From positions 92,401-156,400 of the forward strand of contig JAIWZP010000060.1 of NCBI GenBank assembly GCA_025201375.1: DNA of 64,000 nucleotides. Direction: 5' to 3'. The stretch is from Gongronella butleri. Taxonomy: Eukaryota; Mucoromycota; Mucoromycetes; Mucorales; Cunninghamellaceae. Position 1 is the stretch's first letter, and every line of letters begins with the position of its first letter. Below the pieces are notes generated by a model, which worked only from the letters and a program-made list of their open reading frames with translations, did not search any database and was not told the origin of the DNA. The position numbers and the translations under genes are program-made. This document shows, piece after piece, positions 1,023 to 61,022 of the stretch.

Positions 1023-4000
1023 ATGGGCGATATGACTCCGTTGTATTCCTTGTTCGCCTTGCTGCCCATCTTGCTGTCTGGCTTTATCCTGTACACGCAC
1101 CGCCGCACGTATGGGTCGCTTGATATTTCAACCGAGTCTGTGGCCTACCAGCGCCAAGAGTATCACTCGCTGCTGGACTGGGACAAGTATGCCTTGCAAA
1201 TTGTCGGCCGGCCGTCGTTGGTGCTTGCAGGCGAGTTTCATTATTGGCGCTATCCAGACCGGTCGCGTTGGGAGCACATTTTGCAGCAATACCGCGCGCT
1301 CGGATTCAATGCCATTCGTATCTATTTCCATTGGGGATTCCACTCGCCGGACGATGGCGTCTACCTGTTTGACGACAATCGCGACGTGGACTATCTTTTG
1401 AATCTTTGTGAGGCCATGGGGATCTATGTGCTCGCTGCACCAGGTCCATACATCTGTGCCGAGTCGCAAGGTGGTGGCTACCCGGCGTGGCTCGTTGCCA
1501 AGCGTCAATTGCGCATCCGACACAACAAAATCATGCTCTGGCGCACATACGACCCCGAATTCGCCTCCTACGAGGTCCAATGGATGGACAACATCCTGCC
1601 CATCCTTGCGCGCCATCAAATCACCGACAACACTGACACAAAACGCGGCTGCGTCCTTGGCGTCCAAATCGACAATGAGCTCTTTGAGACAATGAATGGC
1701 ATCTTGCCTGTCGGTCTCCACGACCAGATGCGCATCCTTGCAAAGGCCGCACGCGACGCGGGCATCACGGTCCCGCTCTTCACCAACGATGGCTTTGAGG
1801 AAGGCGGATGGATCCCTCATCGTCCGTCCAATTTTTGGTCAAAGCATCCCTTTGGCATTGATCTTTATGGTTTTGACAAATATGTTGGTGAGTTTCCCCA
1901 CCCCCCAAATTGGCCACGTCATGTGGTGCTGAGCGCCTTTTTTTTTTGTTCTTTTATGGATAGTCTTTGCCCCAGCAAGCTCGCCAAAGTCATGGCTCAT
2001 TGATGGCGACACCGTGGCCAATGATTGGCAGGATTGGGATCCCAAGACCGTGGAAAAGGGCATGGACAAGCTCGAAAAGACCGTTCGTGGCTACGGCGGC
2101 GGCGCCGCACAGGTAAAAGAAAAAAAAAAACGAAAAAAAAAAACGAAAAAAGCGCGTTTTACTGCCATTTACCCATGGGCTGACGACATTTTTTTTTGTT
2201 TTCTAGTCGCCCATGTTCCTCCCCGAAATGCAAGGCGGCTGGTTCAACCACTATCAATTGCAGCACACGTACGACCAGATTTACGACTTTTATGGCGAGC
2301 ATCTGACACGCATCCTCTTTGAAACGTCCTTGGCTCAAGGTGTTACGGCGCTTGGCGTTTATATTCCCTATGGTGGTACCAATTGGGGCACGTTGGGTGA
2401 CCCGTGAGTACCAGAACAGAAAAAAAAAAGAACAGAGAAACAGAAAAAAAAAACAAATGAGGCACGCGTATTGATTGCTTTTTTTCCCAGGGACGTCTAT
2501 ACATCGTATGACTATTCCGCGTGCATTCGTGAATATGGCTACACGTCGTCACGGGGGCGGCAGTTGCGCAAGGCGCTCTTGTTTGTGCAATCGTTTGAAT
2601 CGCTGTTTGCCCGCACCGATGCCACGCGGCACCCTTCTGTAACGTCGCGCACGCCGCACGTGATCCAGCGCCAACGTGTGTCCGTGGATGCCGAACAAAA
2701 CGCCACGTTTACGTTTTTCCGCAACTTTGATCGCGAAAAGCGCGCGGTCCACGATGTTTTCGTCAACCACGAAGGCCACACGTTCACCATGGGCGTGCAA
2801 TTCCCGTACCGCACGTCGTTCATCGCGCTCGGCAATTACACCACGGTCAATGGCCTGCATCTCGTCCAATCGACACTGCCCATCCTGGCTCGCATGGTTC
2901 AACCGCGTACAAACGAGGAAATCTGGTTCATTGAGCCCAATGCCGTGGGCGCTCTCGCTTTTGTCGACAAGGCCATGGATGTCACGGGTGATATGCAGCA
3001 TCCGGTCCTGCAGCGCCAGGATGGCGTGTCGTTGCTGCGCTTTGACAAGCCACGCGGGTGGACAAAGCTCACAACGACCACAGGTTACCTTTATTTGTTG
3101 GGTTTGGACAAGGAAGAGGCCATGACCATCTATGCGGACTTTCAATTACCGTACTGGCACAAGGACACGCCCAATGCGGCCGCGTCTGGAGCGCCACATC
3201 TCGTTGCTTGGGGCGCAGACACGCTCTATTTTGACAAAAAGACCAATGCGCTGCAAATCGAGCAAAATGTCCACGATCAAAAGGTGCACGTGGTGACGTG
3301 GACACACAGCAAGGACGCACGTCTGCAGCCGGCCACGCCGCAGCCACCGAAAATGCAAACGCAAGCGCAGGATGACGACAGTGCCATATTGTCCAGTCCG
3401 TCGCTCGGTGTGCCATATCACACCGTGTTGCCCCTGGCCGACCATCACCAGGACACGCTCGTCATCGATCGTCCACTCACGCATTGGCAGACCAGAGACA
3501 TGCAATGGGACAAATTGGCATGGGCGCCGCTTGCAAAGGACAAAAAGGGCAATTTGCTCTTTGACGCCATTGATTACCATTTCACGAGCGGCCACGTTTT
3601 GTATCGCAATGTGTTTACGACCCCGCCCACATCCAGCCCACGTGTCCAACTCACGCTCAATGCTCGCCATCGCGCCACCGTGATCATGAATGGCCGCATC
3701 CTCGGCGGCCACACCACATACTCGCGCCAATTGTTCATGCCTGGCGCCAAGATTGGGCCTGATCCTTACTTCCTTGGGTCGCGCACTTATGATCTCACCC
3801 CGTACTTGTCTCATGAAGGTGATTTGAACAACACGCTCATTGTCCTCGTCGACAGCTTCGGCCTCAATCGCCAGGCATTCATCATGAACGATATTCGAAA
3901 CCCGCGCGGCATCATCAAGGCCAAATTGCACGGCATTCCGCTGTCCACGCACCCGACCCATCAATGGCACATTGCCGGCGTCGATGTGCGCAAGCTGCAT

Positions 4001-4486
4001 GAGCCGTTCAACAGTGCAGGATTCCCCGATGAGAAATTGGATGTGCCAATGGCCTCGTTTAAGCCACAAACGTCGCTTTCCGGAGGCGCGTCCCTCACCA
4101 CCATCCCGCTGGACCCCGCACAGGGCGTGCAATGGTGGCAGGCGTCCTTTAGCCACAAGGTGCCCAGCAAGCAGCGCATCCCGCTCTGCATGCACCTCGA
4201 TGGCGAGTGGACAGGCAAGGTATTCCTCAATGGCAAACTCATTGGCCTCTACTATGGCAACGGCGACGGCCCACAACACGACTTTTATTTGCCAGACGAC
4301 TGGATCCAGTCGTCAAACAACGTGCTGCGCATCCTCGCCTATGCTTGGACACCCACAGAGGCCGCCGTCGCCATCCGCGGCTGGCGCACGGATTTCCCAG
4401 GATCCGGCAACGTCCTCAACGTCTCCCAGGTCGATACCCGTCTCGCAGCTGACTACATGGTGTGGTCGGATCAAATCGCGTTCTAG
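1023..4486 (+). CDS. Glycoside hydrolase family 35 beta-galactosidase, membrane-anchored or secreted
   Basis: Four exons (1023-1887, 1964-2112, 2207-2403, 2491-4486; all GT-AG) keep frame and encode 1068 residues. GH35 enzymes hydrolyse terminal beta-galactosyl residues with retention. A hydrophobic N-terminal segment (about residues 7-24) followed by HRR suggests a signal anchor or signal peptide. The TIM barrel starts near LVLAGEFHYWR (residue 67) and includes AAPGPYICAE (about 138-147). The acid/base Glu is probably E219 in QIDNE, and the nucleophile E345 in PEMQGGWF. The third and fourth exons meet exactly at the conserved stretch GGTNWG...DVYTSYDY, which supports the splice calls. The C-terminal beta-rich half contains two probable jelly-roll modules. 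The length is usual for fungal GH35 enzymes. The substrate, lactose or cell-wall galactan, cannot be told from sequence. Confidence 0.93.
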
Positions 4487-37868: not shown

Positions 37869-38609
37869 TTATTCAAAGGCGGTGAGGCTGCGGATGAAGC
37901 GATCGACGGCGAGGCGAAAGAGCTCGTTGGAAATGTTGCCTGGGGGAGCCATTGAGTTGGACAGCGCGGTCTGGGGTTGATCGTGTTGCTGCTGCTGCTG
38001 ATGCTGTAGTTTGTCTTGCTGCAAGAAGCCACGGCTGATCTCCCAGCGCGTGTCGTCAAAGCGCATCAGGCCGTTTTTCACCACGAATTCAACATACAGC
38101 TGGATGTGGATCTGCTTTAGCACCGCCTTCATGCCCTCGGTGTGAGGATCCGTGTTGAGTACGAATTTCAACCCTGTGGGCGTCTCGTAATAATGCAGCC
38201 GATACGTCGTTGTGCGATAAGAAATAAACCCGTCCTGCTCCGTCAGCTTGCGCACGAAATTGCGCAGCGACAGAATCACGCCGTACACGAGCTTGGCCTC
38301 CTCCTCCATGGAAATCATGCTGCCGGCCGCCATGCCACTCTGCTGCGTCAGCAATGTCGTATTTGTCGTCGTCGTCGCCGTCGGGTCGGCCATGATGCTG
38401 CCCCCGTGCCCATGCGATGCCTGCGTCGTGCTGCTCGTCAGCGGCTCGCCGCCACCACCGCTCGACGACGTCGTCGAATGCGACAGCCGCGACCCAAGAC
38501 GGCTGGACGCTTGACTCGTGTTGCCGCTCATCTTGGGCGCATGACTCCACTTTTGAAAATAAATACACTGGCAGTGCCGATCAAAGATATACAGATTGTG
38601 AATCGTCAT
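37869..38609 (-). CDS. BET5: TRAPP complex subunit Bet5 / TRAPPC1 with two low-complexity insertions
   Basis: A single exon of 246 residues. The start (MTIHNLYIFDRHCQCIYFQ) and the core (EEEAKLVYGVILSLRNFVRK, DGFISYRTTTYRLHYYETPT and FVLNTDPHTEGM, then LYVEFVVKNGL) match the longin/sybindin-like fold of TRAPPC1 very closely. TRAPP is the Rab1/Ypt1 exchange factor for ER-Golgi and autophagy traffic. Yeast and animal proteins are about 145-160 residues; the extra length comes from a Ser/Thr/Gly-rich insertion at about residues 27-100 and a Gln-rich insertion at about 195-215, before the conserved end (ELFRLAVDRFIRSL). The second insertion lies just before the last helix. Confidence 0.9.
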   Translation of the reverse strand: MTIHNLYIFDRHCQCIYFQKWSHAPKMSGNTSQASSRLGSRLSHSTTSSSGGGGEPLTSSTTQASHGHGGSIMADPTATTTTNTTLLTQQSGMAAGSMISMEEEAKLVYGVILSLRNFVRKLTEQDGFISYRTTTYRLHYYETPTGLKFVLNTDPHTEGMKAVLKQIHIQLYVEFVVKNGLMRFDDTRWEISRGFLQQDKLQHQQQQQHDQPQTALSNSMAPPGNISNELFRLAVDRFIRSLTAFE

Positions 38610-39284
38610 CTTGGTATCGAAATTGGTCCTTGCTTCACAACAAAACGCGCGTCAAACACAAGATGGAAGGGGTCGCCAATAAGTTGAAAAAAAAAGCGGG
38701 AAAGCAACGCACAAAAAGAGGGCGAAATCAGGGCCGCCAACCCCCGCCCCTTGATCATTTCGCATTCAGCTCCCGCCAAAGTGCCAAATGTTTGCCAGCC
38801 TTAGGTTTCGCGGCAAAAGCACGTTCATTCTTTTTACTTTTTTTTTTTACGCATTGCGCGATTTCGGCCCATATGATAGCACAATGACCACGCGCGCTCA
38901 AAGACGCGCACATTGTATGACTTACGCCGTTTATCTTGTACATGCCAAAGCGGGTGGATTTTGAGATGATTAACCTTTTTTTTCTTAAATTTGTAAAAAA
39001 AAAATCACTACCAAGGACATTTTGCGACACCACGATCCACGAAACTTTCTCACGTGGTGGATTTGACCACTCTCTTCTCAGAATAAACTAACCAGACTAC
39101 CAGAGAGCGAGCGAGTTGTTGTTGTTGTGCAGATACAGTAGATGCATTCGAAAGATCGAAACCTCCTCGACATTTTACAAATAAAGACTTCAGCACTTCA
39201 CCACAAATCTTGCTTGGTTGGATTGCCCAAATATTCACGTTACAGTACCTATCTCTTTTTCAATACAGTATGGCTCTATGGCAT
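38610..39284. other. Intergenic, no gene seen
   Basis: About 675 bp with the Bet5 promoter at its start. TACAGTA-type motifs occur at about 39127, 39241 and 39264. Nothing coding was recognised. Confidence 0.5.
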
Positions 39285-41545: not shown

Positions 41546-42698
41546 TCTGTTCTATTTTGGCAATTTAATTACGTATCATAGCGCGATGGTACCATTATTC
41601 AAGTGGATGCGCGTGTCATGTTCTGTCCACAGCCGCCCTGAGGCTTGCATTGGAGAGGATGATCAAGCGTGAAAGGTGCGCAAAAGCAAAGAAACACGAA
41701 GAAGCGCATACAGTATTTTTTTTAGTATCAATCTTACTGCACAACAGACATTAAACAACCTGGATACTGATGCAAGCAAAAAAAAAATAAAGTGCAGGAC
41801 TGTAAAATGATACTGTACGCAGCAGCGATGGTCGTATTTATGACAAGAAAGAGTGCACAACAAAATAAAAAATAATGCGAAAATCCAAGTTGCTTCTTGC
41901 TTGGTAAGCTTGTTTTTTTACACGCTCGTGTAGCACTTCATTGAAAGATGAAAACCGAGCAAGCCAGCGCGTTTGGTGCAGGGCGCAGTGTTCTTGGGTT
42001 TAAAAGAAATGACTGACTGGAAGCTTGCGAAGATGGTATTAGGCAATACTCGAGAAAGAATTTTTTTGTCGTGATTGGTGATTCGCCACGACATTGTTAA
42101 TGTGTCAATCATGCTGCGGACGGCAACGCGCTGCAGCTGCTATGATAAAGCACACACAAATGTCCAGCTCTCCCCAATTTCCGTTTGACTGCCATGACCA
42201 AAGAGTCGCTTGGTGGTTGTTGATCACGACGCGCGATTTAGGTGTCTTTTTCTTTTTGTTTACAATTTCGTGTGATGAAATATTCACAATCATCTTGTGC
42301 CAATCCATGTGTACATTGCAGCAGACAAGCAAATGGGGGGGGGATCAAAAAGGGATTGTCGGCGATGACCACACAAGCACACACCAAACAGGAATGGCAG
42401 AGCAAAAAAGCGCAGCGCTGGAGCGGAATGTCAAATCCTTTTTTGTAGTATACAATTATAGGCTGATTTTTTCAGCCATTTCATTACAACTGGCTTGTAG
42501 CCTAATTATTTATTTATTTTTTTTTTGGATGCGGGGATTCACTACACTGTAAAAAAAAAACACGAAGATTAGCTGCCAATCAAATTTCTTGGGATCAGCT
42601 TCTATGCTCCCCTCGTCCCCTTAGGTAACCAGCTTTTTTTTTTTTTTTGTGCCAGTGGCGAGATGCTTACCAATAGCCTAAACAGCCGATTGTGAAAT
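41546..42698. other. 3' flank of the Fanzor gene; no gene seen
   Basis: About 1.15 kb downstream of the minus-strand Fanzor stop codon. It holds a 109-bp stretch bounded by TACAGTAT (41709-41716) and ATACTGTA (41810-41817), a possible tiny Tc1/mariner-like MITE with TA target sites. T-tracts and another CACTGTA lie near 42543. Guide RNAs of Fanzors usually derive from the region around the 3' end of the gene, so the stretch nearest 42698 is the first place to look for one; nothing in the sequence alone proves it. Confidence 0.4.
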
Positions 42699-45600
42699 CT
42701 AGGACGACTTTTGTGGTCTCCAATAAGGGGGGTTTGTGGGATCGGCTTCAACGAATTCCTTGGTAAAGACTTGAGGTCGCTTGGGATTGTCCGGGTTGAG
42801 TGCCTTTCGATCTTGACCATATATGTGGAGCAGCGCAATCGAGCGAATGTTGCGGGCGGCGTTGACGTCTCTTTGCCAAAGGCGCGCGCACCAATTGCAG
42901 GAGAGTGCGCCATGCAAATTAAACGTGCTTGTGCCGCAGTCGCGCTTTGTGACATTCGTCAAAGATCGACGACCGCATGTGGAACAAGTTTTGCTCGTAA
43001 AAGGCTCTGGGACAGCCACGACCATCAGACGCCAGTCGCGCTGGGCGAGAATCAGAGCGCGCTTGAGTAGGGCGGCTTGGCCAGTCGGTTTTCCTCGCCA
43101 ATTCATGCGATTGAACGTCGCGTCACCAATACAAATCAGCGGACAAGAATAAAATCGTCGGCGGGGCGAGGCCTTGCGCCACCTATGATAGAGTTAAAAA
43201 AAAAAAAGTCAATTGGCAAGACTCTCTCGTGACAGGGTCGCTTTGCTCGTTTGCTCACTTGATGTCGCTCTGGCTGTCGTGTGCTTGTCGCGTAGCGTTG
43301 TGTGGATTGTATTTTTTACCGCCGTGTGCCAGGATATTGACCATCTCGTTGACGGCCAGCTGCTTGCCTCTAAAATTTAAGAATCGCAGCTCTTGATGCC
43401 GGAGCCCATAGTACGCTAGAAGCCGCGGTAGCGCACGGAGGACACCTTGGACATGCAGGGCCATTTTTTCGGGGCGTGTGGTCCTGGCGGTGGGCAATTC
43501 GGATTCCAAGGTGGTGATGGTGACGCCCTGCTCGTCGGCGGAATTTTCTTTCCATTGGCGGAGGTGCTGGTTCGTACGAGTAATTCCAGACAGATGATTG
43601 TATTCCTGCGCAGAAAATCGACGCACTTGATGAGCCTCGCTCGTGGTAAAGAGACGGCGAGAACGCTCGGGAAGAACCGACGCAGATCTGGGGCGTGCTG
43701 GTGACTTGGGATCGCGCATGTTGCCTATTTTTGTCTCTGGCGCTTCGGCCGACCATCTGATTTTCCGGCCAGCGGATGGTGGCAGCGGCGGCAATGTGGG
43801 CCGCGAGGTGCCATAAATGCCGCTCTGGTGGTTGGACCCGTCGACAGCTACAAATATCTCGGAGACGCCCGGATCGACGCCCCATACATGGCATTGTTGT
43901 AGATCTTGAGGATCAATGTCGTCCAGTGCAAGCAGTGGTGGAGCCTTGCCAGTAGTGGGGACACGGTAAAAGACCGACGTGGAGAAGGCATCGGTCATGA
44001 GCGCATTGTCAAACACGGCGCGCTTCGGCCTAGCGGGGTCGAGAAAAAAAAAAAGAGGTTAGGTCACCCTCTTTCTTTCTTTTTCAAAAGATTCATCTTA
44101 CGGTCGGATTCGTGTCCAATCAAATAGGCGATGGAAGACGAGATGCATCTCGCCGTCATCCGGGGCGCTTTCCTTGCAGTCCTTTTGGTATTTCGATAAG
44201 CCGCTGAATTTCAAGAGTCCCATGATGGATCGGTGGTGCAGGTGGATGTATCGGAGGCGGAATGATGGGGCCGGGACAAGAGCAAAGAGGCGGATGGCGG
44301 GGCGGGCGATGATCACTTCCGGCTTGAATGTTTTGTCGTTGATCAGCTGGCGGGTATTTTTGAAGAGGGAATCGATGGCGTCTGTGGATGGTTGGGTCAA
44401 TTTGTTTTTGTAGGGCAGCTTCTCCACGTCGAGCGTCGCTTTCTTGGTGTTGATGAGTTTCATGAGGACGCGTGTCAGACGCGTTCGCTGTCTGTAATTG
44501 AGGTATTGGAAGTCTGGCACCTGATCTTTGAGTTTACTGCGCGTCCATGCGAATGTGACTTCCTCGGCGGTCTCGGCTGGCTTGGCTGCGTCTTGTTCGT
44601 TCCATTCCTCAATTTCTCGAAGCGCGTCGTGTAATACTTTGAGGAAAAAATGCGGGTATTTTGTGATGGCAGCTGTAGTGATCGAGAGGCGCTCTGACAC
44701 GTGCATTTCCGACATGCCCATTGATCCGACCGTGCTTGGAGACATTGCATCCGAGATTTCCACGTCAGGAATGGGATCCACGCTCATTGCGCCCACGCTG
44801 TCGGCGTCATGGATGGGATCGATCATCATTTCCGAATCGATGTGGCCGGATTGGGCGTCCGAGGCCGACAAGAGGAAGCTGGCGACCATTGCATCGGCGT
44901 CGGCAGCTGTGGAGGCGGCGGCATTGGCAGCTGCGTTGGCGGCGGCGGCTGTATCTATGGCGGCGGCATGGATCTGGGCGGCGGCCATGGCTTCGGCATG
45001 CGCTGTGACTTGACGCTGCGCCGCTCTGTTGCACGTGTTGGCGAGCATCACCGCAAAATTGATCGCGTTTTGGTGGGTCTCGGCGGCGGATGCAGCCAAT
45101 TCTTGCGCCTCTACATCCAAAGGCGGGTCTGTATGCTCTGCCATTGCCTGAGTAGCAGCAGCTGCAGCAGCCAAGGCCGGGATGGTTGCAGAATGTGACA
45201 TGTATGCGTGGCTGGCGGCATTGTGCGCAGCAATCGCGTGTTGCGCCGCGGTATGCTTTCTGGCGGCGACGTCGGCAGCAGCTTGGCATGCAGCAGCTTG
45301 TGCATTGGCAATCTCTCGCGCCTCATTGGCCACAGCATGCGCAATAGTGGCCCGATCCACGGCAGCTTGGTGCTGAGCAGCAATCACGCCCGGTGCCTGC
45401 TCTTGGATGGCCAGGGCGGCGACGGCAGCATCATCGGCAGCAGCATCAGCAGCTTGTTGGGCGCCAGTCGACGATTCGGCGACAACCACAGGCGACGAAT
45501 TGGGCTCCATGGGCGTCCGAGCGGATTGCGCAAATGTCAGGCCGGCAAGAAGAGCATCACGGTTCGCCAATGATGTTTGTCGCGCTCGTTCATTCGCCTC

Positions 45601-47158
45601 GGTGCGCTTGCGCGTCGCTTCGGCAATCTCGAACTTCTCCGTCACCACATAAGAGTACACACACCGCCATTTGGACTCCGCGTGCTGCGCCAGCGCGTCG
45701 GCATCCGCCGCCAGCTTCTCCTTGGCTGCATCCTTCATCTTGTATTTGGGAAGTTCTGCCGGGAACTTTTCATCCTTGGCGGCCTTATCGTACGCATACA
45801 TTGCGTAACCACGGCATTGATAGGGCTTGAGATCCTAAAAAATATCGAGAAAAAAAAAAAAAAAAAGGTCAGGTCGCTCGCTCTCTCGTTCTCTCTCTCT
45901 CGCTTTATCCTTACCGGATGATCCACCGCAAACTTGGCCGCAAGGTATCGCATGAAGAATTCCTCAAAGTTCTCGACGACATTGTTCTTCATGATGACGG
46001 CAAGCTGGACGGCCGTCTGGCTGGTGATGTCCGTGAAGCCATTGGCCTTGTTGTTGGTGCCAATGGGTTTTGACATGGTGATGGACGGGTGGGCTTGTTT
46101 GAATCGATCAAATGCTTCCAAAAAGGCCATGCGCGTGTCATCGTCCGAAAAGAGAGCCTTGTTGGACGCCTGGCCACCAAGGATGAGCTGGAACACCGCC
46201 GTGAAAAAATCTTGGGTGAAAATGGCGCGTGGGACGTGTTGACCAGCGCCAAGGACATCCACCACGTATTGCTGGGTAAAGAGCATGGCATGGATGACGA
46301 GCTTGCGGTTGAAGGAAGCAACTTGGTGGACAGCGTCCATAAAAGTGTTCTTGTCGTTCTCCGGGATATCGTCGTGTAAGAGAGTGCGTAAACCGTGCTT
46401 GATCACCATCATTCGCGTCTTGCCCAAGCGCTCCTTGGTCTTGACCGATTTTCTCGCCATGTACTCAGGGCACACTTTGTTCGTCGGCCGCGAGTGAGTG
46501 TAGGCAAGCTCCAAGCGTGCCTTTGCCTCGGCACGCAGGCGCACATAGTCGCCATTGTCTTGCTCCATGCGCGCTAGGGCCGCCACGGGGTCGCTGGTGA
46601 AATCAGGTTGTGCCTCAAGCATCGCCGACGCTTCGCCGTCCAGTCGATCGGCGGCCGCCTTGCACCGTGGGCACGGATTCTTCACGGCAGCCGAGCTGGC
46701 CTTTGTTGACGCGGCGAATTCCTCTTTGGCGCTTCGTTTGTCTTTCTTTTCGTCGCTCTTTTGTCGTCGTTTCGATGTCATGCGACCCTTTCCTTTTTTT
46801 GCGCGACGGCCTATTAAAAAAAACAAAAAAAAAAAAATAGGCAGTGAGAAGGGCTGGTCAGGGCCAACCGTTTTCCCTAGCTCTGCTTACTGTTGTCTAC
46901 GACAGGCTGTTGTTGTTGTTGCTGTTGCTGTTGCTGCACACCGCCCTCCGTGTCGTCATTGTCTTGCGCCGTCGTCACGACATGCGTGTTTTGCTGCCCA
47001 GTCCCTGTCGCACCAGAATCCGTCACGGCTTCAGCCTCTACACGGGGCGACGCCTCCACAGCTGCTTCCCCCGCTTCCGTCACCTCTTGGCCCACGTTCT
47101 CCTGGTCCGCAGCTATCTTGGCAGCAAGCTTCTCCTTGACAATGGCAAAACGCGGCAT
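42699..47158 (-). CDS. Fanzor: eukaryotic TnpB-family putative RNA-guided endonuclease
   Basis: Five exons (47158-46891, 46810-45915, 45834-44102, 44029-43259, 43182-42699; all GT-AG, frame kept) encode 1383 residues with no internal stop. The C-terminal third shows the split RuvC nuclease of TnpB/Fanzor: RuvC-I Asp1018 in HVWGVDPGVSEIFVAVD; CIGDATF at 1240-1246, where the usual RuvC-II Glu is replaced by Gly1242; Glu1282 in VPEPFTSKTC, matching the relocated Glu reported for Fanzors; a zinc ribbon C1289/C1292 and C1318/C1321; and RuvC-III Asp1328 in LWQRDVNAARNI. The N-terminal part has poly-Gln (about residues 75-84), a basic stretch with a likely nuclear signal (SRRAKKGKGRMTSKRRQK) and a CPRC motif. 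An alanine-rich insertion covers about residues 515-705. Prokaryotic TnpB is about 400 residues. Autonomous spread or a domesticated role cannot be decided here. Confidence 0.88.
44886..45459 (-). other. Alanine-rich insertion coding region in the Fanzor gene
   Basis: About 190 residues, roughly half alanine with Gln, His, Asn and Thr, encoded within exon 3 in frame. Codons GCG, GCA, GCC and GCT are all used, so this is not a simple triplet expansion. A Ser/Met/Asp-rich segment (SEMMIDPIHDADS...) follows before conserved-looking sequence resumes at about LSITTAAITKYPHFF. Confidence 0.8.
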
Positions 47159-47559
47159 GGAAACAAAGAGGGAAAAAGAGGAAGCGAGAGGAAGCGAGAG
47201 GATGCAGAAAAAGAAGCTGGAAAGAAAAGCAAAAAAAAAAAGGTGGCTCCTTTTTTTTTTTTTCTATCTTCCTTTGACCGCGTCTTCTTTTCCAACCCCG
47301 CCCATCCCATCCATGACCGCCAAATGCAAGCGCCTCGGATGACTAAAGGCATCAGCTTCAATGTACCACCGATGCTGTGCATTATGTAAAAGGGACCGCT
47401 AGCTAGGTGGTGACCGATAAAATCGCTTTTATCGTTACAAGGTCCAGCGGCCCTTGCCTGGCCTGGCAAGATGCGGGGCCACTTTTAGCTTTGAAAGGTG
47501 CGAGGCCACTTGAAACACGTATTTTTTGATTTCCTCTTCTCATGAGAAATTAAAACCCG
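47159..47559. promoter_or_regulatory. 5' flank of the Fanzor gene
   Basis: About 400 bp between the Fanzor start codon and repeat R1. An A/T- and purine-rich segment adjoins the start codon on the + strand. A perfect 8-bp hairpin (CGATAAAA-TCGC-TTTTATCG) lies at 47415-47434. No TATA box was convincing and no inverted repeat matching the 3' flank was found. Confidence 0.4.
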
Positions 47560-48030
47560 AAGGTCGACTCGATCATTTTGCAGATGAATCCAAAATTCCG
47601 TTATTTTTCAACTTTAGCACTGGATCTCGAAATATTCTGTGGATCGTGGTGAAACTGGTACGAATTGAATCAGGCACACTCGGGTGTCGTCATTTCCTGC
47701 TTGTTTGCTTGCCCGATAAACGATGTTTCCATGCTTGCAAAATCCATTTAAACTTTTGAACAATTTTCTAACTCATTTTTCTCGACAACGGAAACAACGA
47801 CGTCCAGAACTTTTAACGTGTCGAAAGCACCATTTGAATGTCTCCCAGATGAGTCCAACTTCATTACGATCCGATCAAAACCGACGGAGAAAACAGCTTT
47901 TTTTCGATATTTTCGTTAATGGCACTTTGCTCGACAACGGTCTAGTCTATCTGTGATTTTTATTCCAGATTTGCTAACAAACAGGGGGAAAAGCGTCTAA
48001 TGGGTTGATTTGTAGGGCGCTTACTTGAGC
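47560..48030 (+). repeat. Dispersed repeat R1, copy c
   Basis: This matches 39886-40440 in the same direction, without the MITE and with fewer interruptions. It passes straight into R3 rather than R2. Copies b and c therefore bracket the Fanzor gene as direct repeats about 7.6 kb apart. Confidence 0.85.
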
Positions 48031-48830
48031 AATCGCCATGTTCGAATATCTCGGATTTTCCAAGGGGTGCAGACGAGGATTTGAAAAGAGCAAAATGTAA
48101 GTCCTCAGATCGCCACGCCATTCAACCGTAGGGTTATGTCACCCCAATGACCGATACTGATGCAATAAAAAAAGGAGGTGCATCAGCTGATTTCTGCGTA
48201 AATTGCAATTTGCCTCGTTTTTTCGCCTCAAGTCAAAGTCGACGAAGATTGGACATAGAGCCGCGAAACAGAGATCATCAGAAAGACCACGGCCTGTTGC
48301 ACACGTAGTTGTCAATGATCACTGCAAAAAATGAGTCCCAGGCAGAACTGATGCGAACAGATCGTTTGCGGGGCAACTTTGACGCGTGAAAAACCGCATC
48401 AGACGTCGCGTTACACGCGCTTGATCATCATCAAATCCATACTTCCGGAGTCTCTCTTGCTAGTGGACGCATCAGCGCGGCTCTATGGACGCGTTTTTCC
48501 CATGCAATTCGCGCTTGAAATTTAATCTAAAATCATGAATTTCTCGTCAGCCACCTGGGCGATCCCACTCTTTTTTGGTGTTTTCTGTGGTTTCTTCCTG
48601 CATTGTCTTTTGTGTGGAAATTTGGTGGAAATCTGAAGACCTATTTTCTCAATTTTGGTTTTGGGTGCTCGCCACGACTAAAATTTTATTTGCGTGTGGC
48701 GCGCCCCGATGCCTTTTGGTACCTTGCAAATTGGGTGTCCCTCGAGGTTTCTAGCCTGCCATTTCACGCTACACTGTATTTTGAGTCATCATCGGGATTG
48801 GCTGATCAGTTTTAGTTGCCCTTCTGTTAA
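48030..48830 (+). repeat. Dispersed repeat R3, copy b
   Basis: Related to 22980-23960 and 63077-63960. The last part contains a frame (about 48603-48815) whose translation resembles the corresponding frame at 63630-63818 (KFGGNLKTYFLNFGFG against KFGAILETHISHFGLG), which hints at an eroded coding sequence inside the repeat. Confidence 0.75.
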
Positions 48831-49964
48831 AATGGACCATCTGGGGGTGTTTCTCCTGGTATACTCGTGCGAATGGTCACAAATGCATGTCGAGGGCGAA
48901 GCACCTCGGTCGTGCCTGTCCACGGCATCAATAAAACGAGTGCAGGCTTGCAAAATAATCTCAATTTCCTTTTTCCTTGTCAATGCATCAAAGAGTGCTA
49001 AAAAAATGCAAACAATCTCTCTCTCCTTTTTTTTTTTTTTTGTTGCTGCAACACGATTTCCCACTCCATATCGCTGCTGGACACACGGTGCTGCAACGAG
49101 ACCAACTAAAAATATTGCCACAGTACAACGCCTTTTTCCTTTTGTCATCACACACAATACAGTAGCAATCCTTCTCTCCTTGTTTGTTTTGGTCAACATC
49201 ATACCTTAAAGAGAACCGCATTCGGATGCAGAGAGGAGGTTAAAACGGTCGCTGGCTCGTTACTGGGCGACGAAAAAAAAAGGATGCAAAAAATAAAAAA
49301 GGATGCACGCCCATAAAGGGGAAAGGAAGCGAGATCAACCACAAAAAAAAAGGATGCCGGACATGCCAATTTTTTTTTTGGTCCGATGCGCAACAGGGTC
49401 GCTCCCTTCAATTTTTGTTCTACAGCTTAATGAAGCTTTTTGTATGGAAACCAAAGGACATGTCGCAAAAGTAAAAGAAATATCGGAAAAAGGAAGGAAA
49501 TAACAATCTCTTAAGATTGAGGTTAGACATGTTGTGTGAAAATTTGAAGGCAATCTACTTTGTAGAAAAAAGAAAAAATGGGCCTTTGATATTTTGGGTT
49601 TTAATTCTAGAAGATGTGGCTGTTGACCTGTTAATAATAAAATAATAAAAATAACTTTTCATCATTTTATGCAAGTAAAAAAAAAAAAAAGGACGCAGGA
49701 AGACTGAGACCTGGGGGCAACGTCAATTATTCACCCATTTTTTGTGATCCCGCAGCCACATTAGGATTTCTGTAAAATGTGACCAATCAACGAATTAGTA
49801 CCCTAATTTAGGAAGTTCTCTTTGAGTGTTTTTTTAACGTGCTAGTGGCCCCCCGGAAAAATCCAAGCCATTCACCTAAAATAAACAGGATCCTGCAAAC
49901 TTTAGCTCGCTTTTCCTTTTTTTTTTTTTTTTTTTCTTTTTGCTTTCCATTTAAACTTTTAAAC
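48831..49964. other. Intergenic 1.1 kb upstream of TIM13
   Basis: No gene was recognised. It includes several A/T tracts, an A/T-only stretch near 49630-49690 and the TIM13 promoter. A very long T-tract lies 30-50 bp before the ATG. Confidence 0.5.
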
Positions 49965-52745: not shown

Positions 52746-53549
52746 TTATGGCTGTCGTGCCTTTTCCATGATCTGATGGACGTTTAAAAAGTGATTGTCC
52801 TTTTTAAGTGCATGGACGACCATGGTGGAATTGAGGTCGATGAGCTTTGAATAGATGGTGTTTGACTCGATATAATCGTGGATTCTGCAGTTCCTGACTT
52901 GATAATCCACTCTGGTATTGCTCCAGTCAAACCATTTTTGGACCTGTGAGTCTTCGTGGCCGGCCTTGTAGGTGGCGGGGACGTCGTTTGTGGCGACCCA
53001 TTGGACAAGGTCAAACGACAAGCCATAGCACTCGCCACCCATGAATGTGTTGCCCACCAGGTAGCCCCAATAGCTCATGTTGCGCGGTGTGCGTGCCAGG
53101 TCCGTGGCGAGCCTGTCAAGATACAAGTACGAGTCGTCGTCGGCCTTTAGGACGAAATCCACGGGGTGGTCGCGGAACACCTGGGCCATGAGCTTGAAAT
53201 ACTCGTAAGTTTTGCCGTCGTTCATGTTCTCGACAATGTCCAAGGGCAAAATATCGCGATACGTGTCCATTTCATCGCGCGGCGCGTCATTGCCCATGAC
53301 AAACTTGTAAGTGACGCCCTCTGGTATATGCTGCAAATAGGTGTCGCGGATCAGTTGCCGCCGCTGATAATTGCTCGCTGTGGTGAAGATGCCAATAAAG
53401 ATCTGTGTCGTGTCGTCCACCTCCATATACGAGTCTGTGCACCGCCAGTCCACTGGCATCCCGAGATTCGGCGCATTGATATGATACAGGTGTGAGCTCA
53501 GGTAGATCAGCGCGTAAATCGCAACAACCACTAGTACTTTGCGTAGCAT
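52746..53549 (-). CDS. GT31-type beta-1,3-galactosyltransferase-like type II membrane protein
   Basis: A single exon of 267 residues. A short cytoplasmic start and one membrane segment (about residues 4-20) suggest a Golgi enzyme. The GT31 hallmarks appear in order: IFIGIFTTASNYQRRQLIRDTYL (about 50-72), KFVMGND, the DxD metal-binding motif in VLKADDDSYLYL (Asp137-139), WGYLVGNTF, ECYGLSFDLV and GHEDSQVQKWF, where Glu199-Asp200 match the conserved E-D pair of the family. The stem region is very short and the protein is smaller than most animal relatives (about 320-400 residues) although the catalytic core is complete. The acceptor glycan is unknown. Confidence 0.9.
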   Translation of the reverse strand: MLRKVLVVVAIYALIYLSSHLYHINAPNLGMPVDWRCTDSYMEVDDTTQIFIGIFTTASNYQRRQLIRDTYLQHIPEGVTYKFVMGNDAPRDEMDTYRDILPLDIVENMNDGKTYEYFKLMAQVFRDHPVDFVLKADDDSYLYLDRLATDLARTPRNMSYWGYLVGNTFMGGECYGLSFDLVQWVATNDVPATYKAGHEDSQVQKWFDWSNTRVDYQVRNCRIHDYIESNTIYSKLIDLNSTMVVHALKKDNHFLNVHQIMEKARQP

Positions 53550-55932: not shown

Positions 55933-58900
55933 CTATAAACCGTCCTTGGCCAACAATTCCACCATGGCTTGCACCACACCAGACGACGAAACTAGTAATA
56001 TGCATAGAAAAAAAGAGGTCAGTCAAACTAAAATGAGACAACACATGAAAAACACTTACCGTCTGCCTGCGGGTCGTGGATTTTGGCGTCCAATTCCACG
56101 GAAAAGAGGCGCTTCAGTTGGTTGACGAGGACACCGACGCGCGACCATGCGCGGAAACGGACCCAGTTGCCCTGGCCAATCGTCAAGCCGCGACCCTGGT
56201 GATCCACCTGCACCTGGCCGCCGAAAAAGAGCAATGCATAGTTGGGCACCTCGGTGCCGTCGCGCAGAAACGTCTTGGATGTGGCCATGCGCGAAAAGTA
56301 CGTCAGGTACGCGGCATCATACTGGTTGTGATTGAACAAGATGGACGACGGATGCAAAAAGACGCGTCCTAGAATAGAAACAAAAAGCAATGAGACGCGC
56401 CTTTTCGCCTTTTTTTTTGTCCTTGGTCTTTTTTTTTTTACCATCATCCTTGGTATAATACTTGAATTCGCGCGCATCCTTTTTGCGCTCGACGGTGCCA
56501 CTGATGATCTTGTCATATTTTGTTTCTGGGGTCTTGATGCGTGCGAGGTGCGGATTGAGGCCAGCAAACACAATGGCCTTGAGCAGGTTGATGTGGTCGA
56601 CATTGACATTGTAGTGGTCGTGCTTGCTGCGCGTGTAGAACCCAATGTCCGCGAGGGCATCGGCGTACTGGCGCCGCAGCGCCTGGATCTCGTTCATGGT
56701 AGCAAACGACACGTAATTCGACTCGCAGAATTGCCGCGCCGCGCGCATCCCTTGCTGCTTGATCGCCGCGTGCCATCCATCGTACGCGCGCTGGTCTGTC
56801 AGCCAATCGCTGCGACCAAAGAAGAATTGCTCGCGGGCCCTATGAAAAAAATGGTCAATTGAACCCGCAAACCATAAAAAGAGAGAGAGAGAGAGAAAAA
56901 AAGAAAAAAAATGAGGTCTTACTTGCGCGCCTCCTCGCGTTTGTCCATGGGCGAGACAAAGGGGCTCTTTAGCGACATGGTGGCGGCAATGGTCAAAATC
57001 GGATCCAAGCATTGGAAGATGGCGCCAAGCAGCAGCATTTTGCTAATACGCAGATCGGCAGGGATCGACGCCTACAAGGAGGAATCAAGAAAAAAAATGA
57101 GAAAATGGTTCACTTGGTTTTTTTCTTTTCTTTTTTTCGTTTCTCTTCGTTTTCTTTTTCTTTTTCGCGCACCATGTGTGTGCCGAGGGGCGTCAATTGC
57201 TCCATGTCATCGAGGGCGTCGACGGCCTTTAGAGTATTGACGGCTGTTTCGAGTGCGGCGACGGACGGCGGGTCAATTGCCTTGCGGAGGAAGGGGACGA
57301 CGTCTTTTTCGCCCATGGCCTTGACTTGCAGACACAATTGTTCGAGAGGCGTGCGCAGAAGCTCTGGGGTCTGTTGCGGTGCCATCTTGTCGTGCTCGGT
57401 GGCGCGTGTGAACATTTTGAAGCACTGACCAGGGCGCGTACGGCCTGCACGACCGCGGCGCTGCTTGCACGACGCGCGCGACGCATACGTCTCGACGAGA
57501 TGCATCATGTTGCTACGCGGATCGTATTGCGTCTCCTTGACGCGGCCGCTGTCAATCACATACACCATCCCGTCAATCGTAATCGACGTTTCTGCCACGT
57601 TGGTCGCCACAACCACCTTGCGTGCCCCGGCGGGAGCGCGTTTGAACACACGTGCTTGCTCCGCAGGCGCCAATGCCGAGTGCAATGGTACCACCTCGAG
57701 CTTCTTGCCACGCACTTGCTGTTGGACCATCTCACAGCACTTTTTGATCTCCATGGCACCAGGCATAAAGATCAGAATACCCGGACGCGTGCCTTGGTCG
57801 TCCACCACTTGGCCCGCATCCTGCGAAACAATGTACTCGACCGTCTTGGCAACAAGATCGTAATCAATGCCGTCCTGAGATCGATATTTTGCAAGCCAAT
57901 GCACTGTCTTTTCATCGTATCCGAGAGCCAGATACGGCTTTTGCCAAGCAGCCCACTTGCTCTCCTTTTCATCCTCGTTGTCTTCTTGCACGGCCACGGT
58001 GGCCGCTACCTTGGCACGCGTCTCGTCCGAAATCGCCAGCGGCGAGCCAACAGACAGCATTTGCAGCACGTCCTCCATATAGCTACACAAAAAAAAGGGG
58101 GATCAATCGCTGAAAAAAAAGAGCATAAACACAAAACGCCTTCTTACAAATCTTGGACAGGGTGCGTGAAACCAGGGATGGTCAAGCAAGGCGAGCCTCC
58201 AAAGTAATCTGCGCGTGAAAAAAGAAAAAAAAAAAGTGAATTTGCGCTCTTTTTATCTGTTTTTTTTTTTTTTTTTTGGCCGATTTACCTGAGAAGAGCT
58301 CTTGGTTGATGGTGGCACTCATCAACACGATCTTGATGTCCTTTCGCTTCTGCATCAGCTCGCGCAGCAAGACCAGCAAAAAATCGCTGTCGACTATTAT
58401 AAAAAGTGAGAAAAAAAGGGTCGAATGGGCCATTGGGTCCCTCTTTTTTACCTGAGCGTTCGTGCACTTCATCGACCATGATATGGCTGATGCCCTGCAG
58501 CATGGGGTCGCTCTGCAGACGGCGCAGCAGCACACCGGTCGTGACAAATTGCAAGCGCGTCGCCTTGGACACCTTTGTCTCGCCACGAATCGCGTAACCG
58601 ACCGTGTCGCCAATGGATTCACATCGCTCCGCAGCCACGCGCTCTACACAAAAAAAAAAAAAATGAGCAATGAGTAAACCTGGCAAATTGAGGGGAGGAG
58701 TGTAAAAAAAGAAACGAAAAGATATCTTACCAGCGACACCAATGGCAGAGATTTTGCGTGGTTGCGTACAGATGATCTGGCATGTCGAGCCGTGGCCCTG
58801 GTTAATTCGGTCGTCCAGAATGAATTGAGGCACCTGGGTGGTTTTGCCTAAGGGGGAAAGGGGAATTGAGCGTGTTTTTCTAATGATTTTTTTGTTTTTT

Positions 58901-61022
58901 CTCTTTTTCTCTTTTTTTTTTTTCAATGCTTACCACAGCCTGTTTCACCCGAGACAATGGTGACTTGGTGCTTGTTGACGGCACGGACGACTTTTTCTTC
59001 AAAGGTAGCGGCAGGGAGCTTTGCACGAACTTTTGCAAAGGGTGCGTATGCGTCCGAGGCGTGCATAGCGTTGAGAGCCTCGATGAGCTGGGTGTTTTGA
59101 GCATTGTCGTTCTTTGCAGGCCCCGAGCGATGATGATGATTGCGGCGCTGCTTCTTTTGCTTGCGATGGGTGTTGCTGAGCCACTCTTGGTGCATGAGCA
59201 GCATGCCATCCGTGACTTTGCGCAGCTTGGGTGGATGGGCAATCATGTCGTTTGCGTGATCTTGCAGCCATTCTGCGCACATGTAGATCATGGGCGTGCC
59301 CAAATGGTGCTGCGCCTCTTGCACGAGGCCCTGGATCATGGCAAGCTTCAAATAGGATGGCAAGCCGTCGCATTGGATCATAAACACAGGCAGCGCATCA
59401 GGATATTGGCCCAAGGACGCATCCGTCGTGGTCGCAAACATGACATCCAAGATGAGCGGGTGTTGCGGGTGCTTGGCGTCCAAACGCACGGGGATATGCA
59501 CCTTGAAATGGCGCCGCCCATCCTCATCCTGGGCCTCGATGAAATTCGCGTCGTAAATCGACTGCAGCGTCATCTTTTCTTCGTCAATAAACGTGGCGCG
59601 CATCTCGTCGTCCGTGATCGTCGGCTCCAATGGCTCCTGCTCGCCTTGTTGCTCTTGTTCTTCGTCGCCAAGCGCCAATTGTCGCTGCAGCCACAGCAAC
59701 GCCACATCGTCACGCTCACCATGTGCCTTCATCGCCTCGTCGCACGCCGCAGAAGGGTACCCGAGCTCGTTCATCCGCTTGATCCGCCAGTCGCGGCTCA
59801 GCGACTCCACCGTGTGCGAAATCGTCGTCATCTTGGGATTGTAGCTCGCATGCAAGAATTGACTCGGCAAATCTAAATGTTAAAAAAAACCGCGTCAGAC
59901 AAGTTTGTTTTGTGTTTTTTTTTTTTTTGCAATGGACGGACCATCCTCAGGCACATGCAGACCTAAAGAAAAAGAAAGAAAAAGAAAAAAAAATAAGACC
60001 ATTTGGACGCGTCGTTTTTCGTGTTTTTTTTTTCCAATTTTACACAACCAATCCAGCGCAGCATTGACGTCTGTACAATACTCGAGTGCTTCTTGGGCGT
60101 GGGTTTTGCGGAATCCCATGGCGACAAGCTTGTTGACAATGTCGTTGGCTTGTTGCTTTGGCAATGGCTGTTTCACGGGCTCGTAGATGGCTGCCGACTG
60201 GCGCACGACGTGCTCGACCATCTCACGATTCTCGGAAGCCATGTGGATGGTTGGCAGGCTTGCCCAGAACTTGCGCACGGCGTCGTCATCTTGCTCGGGA
60301 TGGACAGACAGGCCACTGACGGATTTTTTCGAGCCATTGGACGACGAATTCGAAGAGTTTGTGCTCTCCTGAAGAGGCACGAGCGCCGACGGGGGCAATG
60401 GGATGGCTGCGTGGCCGCGCTCCTTGGGCGGTAATTCCTTGTCGCGCTTGTTGCCTGATTTGCCGGCAGGCGCGGGTGGTTGCGCATTAAAGGGGTCGGC
60501 GGCATATTGCCAGGAGTTGGCAGGTGTCTTCCACTCGTCGAATTGACGCCAATAATCGCGATACTGTGGCGGCAGGATCCGGTACATGGGCACGTGAGAA
60601 TTTACCCGATGCAGTGCATAAGTTGCCGCAGCATGGCGAGCCTCAATGGCTGTCGGAAGGCTGATCTCCGGCGGAGGCGTCAACGTCACAATCTGCATCT
60701 GCGCCGTCTTTTTGTTGCGCTTGCTCAGACGCACCGTACCGAGGCATCCGCTCTTTTTTTGGCTCATGTCAATCACAGGCTTCTCCCATCCATTCTTCTG
60801 CGCATGCTCGTGCAACAGCGTCACAGGCGTCTTGCCCGTCCACTGTCCAAAGATCGACTTTTTGTTGTCATTCGCCCCATTCGTCGCCTCGGCTGCCGCC
60901 GCGGCTGCTGCACCGCCCTTGCCAACGCCCTTTTTGCCGCCCAACGTGCCACCTTTGCCACTCAGCGTGCTCGTCGTCGCATTACTCGAGTTTATCTTGC
61001 CCTTGCTCTTCTTGCTGGACAT
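55933..61022 (-). CDS. DHX57: DHX57-like DExH-box RNA helicase with UBA and RWD domains
   Basis: Twelve exons (61022-60044, 59962-59942, 59872-58934, 58847-58731, 58643-58452, 58393-58289, 58208-58148, 58082-57173, 57071-56923, 56839-56442, 56368-56060, 55991-55933) keep frame and encode 1412 residues. Domains in order: a disordered Ala/Lys-rich start; UBA (ANDIVNKLVAMGFRKTHAQEAL); RWD (DEEKMTLQSIYDANFIE); helicase core with SGETGCGKTTQVPQ, TQPRKISAIGVA, DEVHERS in place of DEAH, LMSATIN, VVVATNVAETSITIDG and QRRGRAGRTRPG; then winged-helix/HA2 and OB-fold parts. This arrangement is that of DHX57 and yeast YLR419W, and the length fits. Substrates are unknown. Exon 2 is only 21 bp and its donor, GTCCGT, is unusual. 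Confidence 0.92.

Follow-up and report, generated by a model that had tools for sequence, protein, structure and literature searches.

The closest described counterparts of the system reported here are the Fanzor1 nucleases SpuFz1, GtFz1 and PpFz1 (PMC10432273, PMC11423790, PMC10711439). Like them, a gene of the mucoralean fungus Gongronella butleri encodes a protein with a RuvC DPG motif, an alternative glutamate and a zinc ribbon, lies inside a mobile element and has SL1- and SL2-like hairpins beside the right end of that element. Unlike them, the G. butleri protein has 1383 amino acid residues with an alanine-rich insert, and an intron-like module parts the putative guide-RNA scaffold from the predicted guide in the DNA. 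The gene lies in a stretch of 64,000 nucleotides (positions 92,401 to 156,400 of contig JAIWZP010000060.1, assembly GCA_025201375.1), here called the window, which was searched against the whole genome of 33 Mb in 110 contigs. Coordinates are those of the window, and all the features of the element are on the minus strand. We lean slightly towards the view that the spliceosome takes off the right end of this mobile Fanzor1 element and so joins the scaffold to the guide.

Fanzor1 elements of the same fungal order, MCi-2, MCi-4, MCi-5 and ROr-4, have been described by Bao and Jurka (PMC3627910). Some of them have no clear inverted repeats, as here, and they have target duplications of 6–12 bp, whereas no consistent target duplication was found among the element copies in G. 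butleri; the word intron is absent from the main text of that paper. Bacterial IStrons also join an IS element with an intron, namely a group I ribozyme whose self-splicing renders insertions harmless (PMC4227781), but in the present element the right end alone is concerned, the signals are spliceosomal and there is no GTAAG at the left end. Introners likewise are mobile DNA that brings a splice site (PMC9860276); unlike introners, which insert as introns, the Fanzor element has no left GTAAG donor and would not be removable as a whole. In the open-access literature on Fanzor and TnpB, splicing, IStrons and introners, as far as its text was available, no report of a spliced Fanzor guide RNA was found.

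An intron-like module at the right end of a multicopy element

The window Fanzor is a multicopy mobile element, not a gene alone. The element is 4.9 kb long (42545..47437) and has a 97% match at G000:C39:336127-341048 (copy C39a), where the immediate flanks are unrelated to those in the window. These two copies make up family A. Family B consists of C1, C71 and C75 (about 95% identical), family C of C55 and C39b (90%) and family F of C23 and C18 (98–99% over the compared parts; loci L069 and L070), while C100 (D) and C16 (E) are singles. The protein identity to the window copy is 97% for C39a, 57–59% for family B and C55, and 42–43% for C100 and C16. The initial annotation had placed the gene at 42699..47158; this interval does hold the coding part, but it misses the rest of the element (42545-47437) and the module at 42670-42547.

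This module, 124 nt in length (42547..42670; GTAAGC...GGGGAGCATAG...ATTGGCAGCTAAT...T10...ACAG), is followed by the last two bases of the element, TG (42545..42546). Its parts, a GTAA donor, a branch-like site, a T-run and an AG, are present at 14 of 20 Fanzor 3′ ends (the 20 Fanzor places of the genome minus C12, whose 3′ end was left out, plus C55:48.5k). In the nine main loci, the donor is situated 17–68 nt past the stop codon and reads GTAAG (GTAAA in C39a), the module measures 100–126 nt overall, and CTRAY is found 19–34 nt before its end, followed by a T-run of 6 to 23 and the AG. A regular expression with the branch CTRAY matched all nine main loci, compared with 17 of 3158 overlapping 260-nt background windows of the 64-kb stretch (0.5%), and with an ending of AG directly before TG it matched 8/9 and 3/3158, respectively. 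A looser expression (branch YTNAY, AG before TG) was matched by five of 11 further loci, C15, C24, C23, C18 and C55b; C55 is counted among the 14 though its AG precedes GT rather than TG. Moreover, where divergence of the flanks allowed the element end to be mapped (families A, B, C and F), the AG stands 0–5 bases from it; the bases between are TG in A, TGCAA in B, none or TG in C and TG(A) in F. A strict right-end pattern, which catches 7 of the 14 counted modules, had 7 separate hits in 33 Mb, all of them next to a Fanzor coding match, and none in the reversed control. The coding introns of the window gene resemble the module, and three of the four carry CTGAC or CTAAC, intron 4 being without it by that pattern. 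On these sequence features, the evidence that the module is an intron is good. Family F seems to carry a second intron directly upstream of the terminal one.

Predicted scaffold hairpins and the putative splice junction

The exon part of hairpin SL2 (42671..42694) ends one base before the terminal donor. When the module is spliced out in silico, and only then, SL2 grows across the junction in 5 of 7 lineages. The spliced SL2 would have 13 pairs in family B (..GGTTATTG joined to TGCAA) and 14 in C100 and C16, would gain two pairs in family A, where the terminal TG would pair with CA at the SL2 base, and lengthens in C39b too. In a junction test, the true four bases past the AG were ranked among all 256 possible ones for the improvement of the fold. 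Seven of 13 loci, from families A, B and C and the singles C100 and C16, gave values of 0.05 or less and the window copy 0.051, while the unspliced bases GTAA did so at 0/13 loci. With one locus per lineage, the Fisher p for the spliced bases was 0.0026 with conservative representatives and 8.5e-5 with others (0.45 and 0.67 for the unspliced bases), values that overstate independence because the lineages have a common ancestry. In published Fanzor1 scaffolds the final bases form a duplex stem. Overall, the evidence for a role of the module in the guide RNA is moderate.

Farther upstream, a hairpin with the 7-nt loop CACAAAA (SL1, 42702..42721) overlaps the last codons and is a candidate for guide-RNA stem-loop 1. 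A similar hairpin upstream of the donor, whose 7-nt loop has AAAA or AGAA as its last bases, is found in 8 of 10 lineages, weakly in C47. In an alignment of eight lineage rows, with columns chosen around the loop and without C100 and family F, which do not fit a 7-nt loop, 90% of the cells are paired and the covariation score is 0.557 (0.236 in shuffled alignments), and neither value was reached in 500 shuffles. With the columns slid by +3, 81% of the 16 remaining cells still pair. The hairpin lies before, across or after the stop codon in different lineages, so coding does not explain it. The published Fanzor1 RNAs have a conserved SL1 of seven pairs, with the order SL1-SL2-guide in SpuFz1 and PpFz1, and the GtFz1 RNA has three stem-loops after SL1.

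The flanking DNA beside the right end (42527..42544) would be the guide, a length chosen by inference; SpuFz1 uses a 14–15-nt guide beside its right end (PMC10432273). In the genome, the 16 bases of the predicted guide match exactly only at the flank itself and with two mismatches at three places, and the reversed control gave one match.

Proposed mechanism and the points that weigh against it

The mechanism that we infer from the splice-like signals and hairpins in the sequence would comprise transcription, splicing, RNA binding and cutting. The Fanzor transcript would run past the right end into the flanking DNA, and the spliceosome would excise introns 1–4 and also 42670-42547, the 124 nt that end two bases short of the right end. 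The latter excision would join the SL1 and SL2 scaffold, located around the stop codon, to the copy of the flanking DNA that serves as guide. Since the last bases of the element (TG in A, TGCAA in B) would pair with the 5′ side of SL2, splicing would also complete this hairpin. The T-run lies in the excised part along with further end sequences that a transposase may need, and as these would be spliced away they would not stand between scaffold and guide. In OMEGA systems, cutting by the nuclease is thought to favour retention of the element; here the protein might use the spliced RNA to cut the matching empty site, with the same effect. The fuller proposal, that an intron ending at the transposon border parts scaffold from guide, such that the transposase keeps its end sequences and the spliceosome assembles the guide RNA, falls just short of an even chance in our estimate. 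If it holds, the guide would be rewritten with each new insertion and readied by host splicing. In some Fanzors and in IS607 TnpBs, the scaffold is believed to incorporate the end sequences and so to resolve the clash of guide RNA with transposon ends (PMC10711439); here splicing the end away may do so instead. The nuclease would then need the host's splicing machinery, and with it the nucleus, for its guide RNA, and an assay that supplies as RNA just the DNA adjacent to the right end could miss the activity of such a Fanzor.

Besides the common ancestry behind the Fisher values, a number of observations speak against this mechanism. For the module, C47 has the donor and CTGAC but ends in TCAG before CG rather than TG, and C1b, C28, C23b, C2 and C32 have no complete module by the looser expression (by eye, C1b and C23b keep the donor and the ATTGG block, C28 the donor, and C2 and C32 nothing). 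Furthermore, the blocks GGGGAGCATAG (42612-42602) and ATTGG (42580-42568) inside the module are conserved with changes in families A–E, and splicing does not need them. For SL2, a hairpin touches the donor in only 5/10 lineages (p 0.012 versus internal introns, 0.042 versus shuffles), two lineages fail the lengthening test, and the spliced fold of the window copy is not unusual (z −0.82). The junction test gave p 0.023 with chosen and 0.28 with conservative representatives when two bases were used instead of four, and in the internal-intron control 3 of 18 junctions, all of intron 4, fell below 0.05. Moreover, C55, C15, C24 and family F as it stands miss 0.05, and F reaches 0.020 once the inferred second intron is removed, not before. 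For SL1, two of five covariation measures are not significant (two-sided changes reached in 47/500 and further pair types in 104/500 shuffles). By analogy with GtFz1, a scaffold longer than SL1 and SL2 is also possible.

The strongest competing explanation, which we hold to be unlikely, is that the module, though a real intron, is retained in the working guide RNA, so that splicing and guide-RNA production compete for the transcript. In its favour are the splice signals and the conserved blocks that splicing does not need, and a 2024 paper in Science reportedly found such a competition in intron-bearing bacterial TnpB elements. However, RNAalifold on eight sequences gave no conserved pairing within the module, the unspliced bases improve SL2 at none of the 13 loci, and a T-run that varies from 6 to 23 would lie beside the guide, which is odd for a working scaffold. 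It is rather improbable that the module is an ordinary 3′-untranslated-region intron which reached the border by chance, with a role in mRNA export or stability only and a separately transcribed guide RNA. Its distance of 17–68 nt from the stop codon in the nine main loci and its likeness to the coding introns agree with this, whereas an AG that falls, in four families, within 0–5 bases of the element end, SL1 and the extension of SL2 do not. Slightly less probable still is an unspliced module in which an A/T-rich inverted repeat (CACTG and an A-run) mimics the T-run and CAG, and GTAAG is kept for another purpose, for example by a DNA-binding protein. In families B, C and F the left end does read CACWKC and an A-run, and C55 has TGATTGG-type motifs at its two ends, as have B and F in altered form; but the donor, the branch-like site and the AG stay together across divergent families, the background rate of the module is 0.5%, and family A keeps the right module despite a different left end. 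ATTGG-type motifs were also seen near the left ends of families B, C and F.

Two other forms of splicing were also considered. Excision of the whole element was rejected because there is no left-end donor: in nine left ends (A, B, C and F), neither GTAAG nor GTGAG occurs within the first 110 nt, and GTAAA occurs at one left-end place in both F copies. A group I intron of the IStron type was absent from the Rfam matches to 42000-48000, of which there were six up to E 1; all six are weak and lie in 47152-47321, where the DNA around the start codon and upstream of it is of low complexity.

Gene structure, selection and assignment to Fanzor1

Splicing of five minus-strand exons, recomputed from the window sequence, reproduces the open frame of the initial annotation, with GT-AG introns of 80, 80, 72 and 76 nt and 1383 codons plus a stop, without an internal stop (47158-46891 to 43182-42699). 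Exon 1 (46891..47158) is Q-rich and of low complexity, and exon 2 (45915..46810) encodes the N-terminal core with a CPRC..THSR..CP motif. Exon 3 (44102..45834) carries the alanine-rich insert (31% alanine in residues 501–790), exon 4 (43259..44029) a TDA motif and the RuvC-I aspartate D1018 in DPG, and exon 5 (42699..43182) E1282, the zinc ribbon, D1328 and the stop codon. The three RuvC acidic residues (D1018 in GVDPGV, E1282 in VPEPFTSKTC and D1328 in WQRDVN) and the CxxC...CxxC ribbon (CSTC at 1289, CNWC at 1318) are present at the residues named before, and the acidic residues are kept in 8/8 frames compared. In exon 2 the motif of residues 136–205 (CPRC..TH.R..CP) is kept in paralogues and partly in other Mucorales Fanzors, and is possibly an extra zinc site.

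Introns 2, 3 and 4 occupy the same protein positions in 9/9 loci compared, the window among them; splice sites were found for intron 2 in seven loci besides the window plus C1, for intron 3 in nine loci with the window counted and for intron 4 in eight loci besides the window, while exon 1 and intron 1 were checked at the window alone. The window Fanzor and its paralogues are under purifying selection. From residue 91 on, the ratio dN/dS (nonsynonymous to synonymous substitution rates) is 0.27 (z 4.7; residues 91–1383) between the window copy and the 97% copy C39a, 0.30–0.34 inside family B and 0.12–0.20 in four pairs that are more distant and have a high dS. By region, the window pair gives 0.22 in the RuvC part and 0.49 (z 1.4) in the alanine-rich part. 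Exon 1 was left out, as was C39b for its broken reading frame, and the comparison of the window copy with C16 had no computable dS. The matching positions of introns 2–4 across nine loci and a dN/dS of 0.27 thus make the gene structure more than chance. The intron positions common to divergent paralogues also support the long nuclear history that had been proposed from the introns. In a 2023 survey, introns were reportedly found in Fanzor genes.

That the Fanzor is a passive passenger or pseudogene without nuclease activity is very improbable: there are decayed loci (a frame shift within exon 3 of C39b, and stops inside the matches at C17, C24, C2 and C32, some of which introns may account for), but eight frames are open from residue 91, the catalytic residues are kept in all eight, and the window pair shows the constraint given above.

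By its motifs and profile matches, the gene is a Fanzor1, as the initial annotation had in general terms proposed. The sole Pfam domain match is the zinc ribbon PF07282 (35.3 bits, cut-off 26.3), and the NCBIfam models for TnpB and Cas12f2 match the C-terminal 417 residues weakly, below their cut-offs. A protein search gave eight relatives, of which two from Hesseltinella vesiculosa (1246 and 1180 aa) ranked first, followed by Apophysomyces, two metagenome proteins, two from Mucor flavus and one from Absidia. When a profile of the window protein and these relatives was run against solved structures, Fanzor1 of Spizellomyces (8gkh, E 2.2e-12) and of Guillardia (9cer, 2e-9) came first, before LaTranC (4.4e-6), a viral TnpB-like protein (5.4e-6) and then Cas12 chains. 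The protein therefore appears closer to Fanzor1 than to TnpB or Cas12, as judged by a profile search of structures rather than a tree. The Fanzor1 motif D-X(125,275)-[TS][TS]-XX-C4 zinc finger-X(5,50)-RD (PMC3627910) is matched by D1018, TS at 1285-1286, C1289, C1292, C1318 and C1321, and RD at 1327-1328. The Fanzor hallmarks of DPG in RuvC-I and a glutamate six residues ahead of the zinc finger (PMC10711439) are found at 1018-1020 and as six residues between E1282 and C1289, both in 8/8 frames compared. The TDG motif listed for the WED domain of Fanzor1 (PMC10711439) is present in five of eight paralogues (C55, C71, C75, C1 and C16), with TDA in the window copy, C39a and C100. The great size claimed for the protein holds with 1383 residues, but much of it is the alanine-rich insert, and the Hesseltinella proteins reach 1180 and 1246 aa.

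Element ends and genomic neighbourhood

The left end of the window element (TAACGATAAAAGCGATTTTATCGG, 47414..47437) is unlike those of families B, C and F, which have a weak inverted repeat of CACWKC and an A-run and whose left-end pattern occurs at 6 places in the genome, all of them Fanzor elements of these families. No terminal inverted repeat was seen in family A on inspection, and by eye no common motif in the left flanks that could be a target-adjacent motif (TAM). Three-base repeats were noted at C39b (GAT) and at C1 (CAA, though the right-side CAA is common to other B copies), which is too little to name a transposase family. There were no gene-less copies with family A ends, nor any in the genome by the strict end patterns, and viral contigs gave no relative.

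A non-coding repeat occupies 47438-48884, extending to about 49611, with dozens of genome places among the matches listed. In the window its end (..CTGGACCTTG) adjoins the Fanzor left end without a gap, which it does not in C39a, and related repeat DNA is close to the Fanzor loci C39a, C100 and C16. C2 and C32 (L073 and L074) form a Fanzor pair that is 94% identical, with stops in the match and without the terminal module, and their similarity continues for about 850 nt beyond the stop. Ordinary fungal genes are located at 2408-4486, 37869-38651, 52746-53549 and 57110-59879, with beta-galactosidase, sybindin, galactosyltransferase, helicase and RWD domains. A position of the host close to Hesseltinella within Mucorales is indicated by the galactosyltransferase, which over 88% of its length shows 80% identity to a protein from Hesseltinella; apart from the window's own protein, the others listed are at 61% or less.

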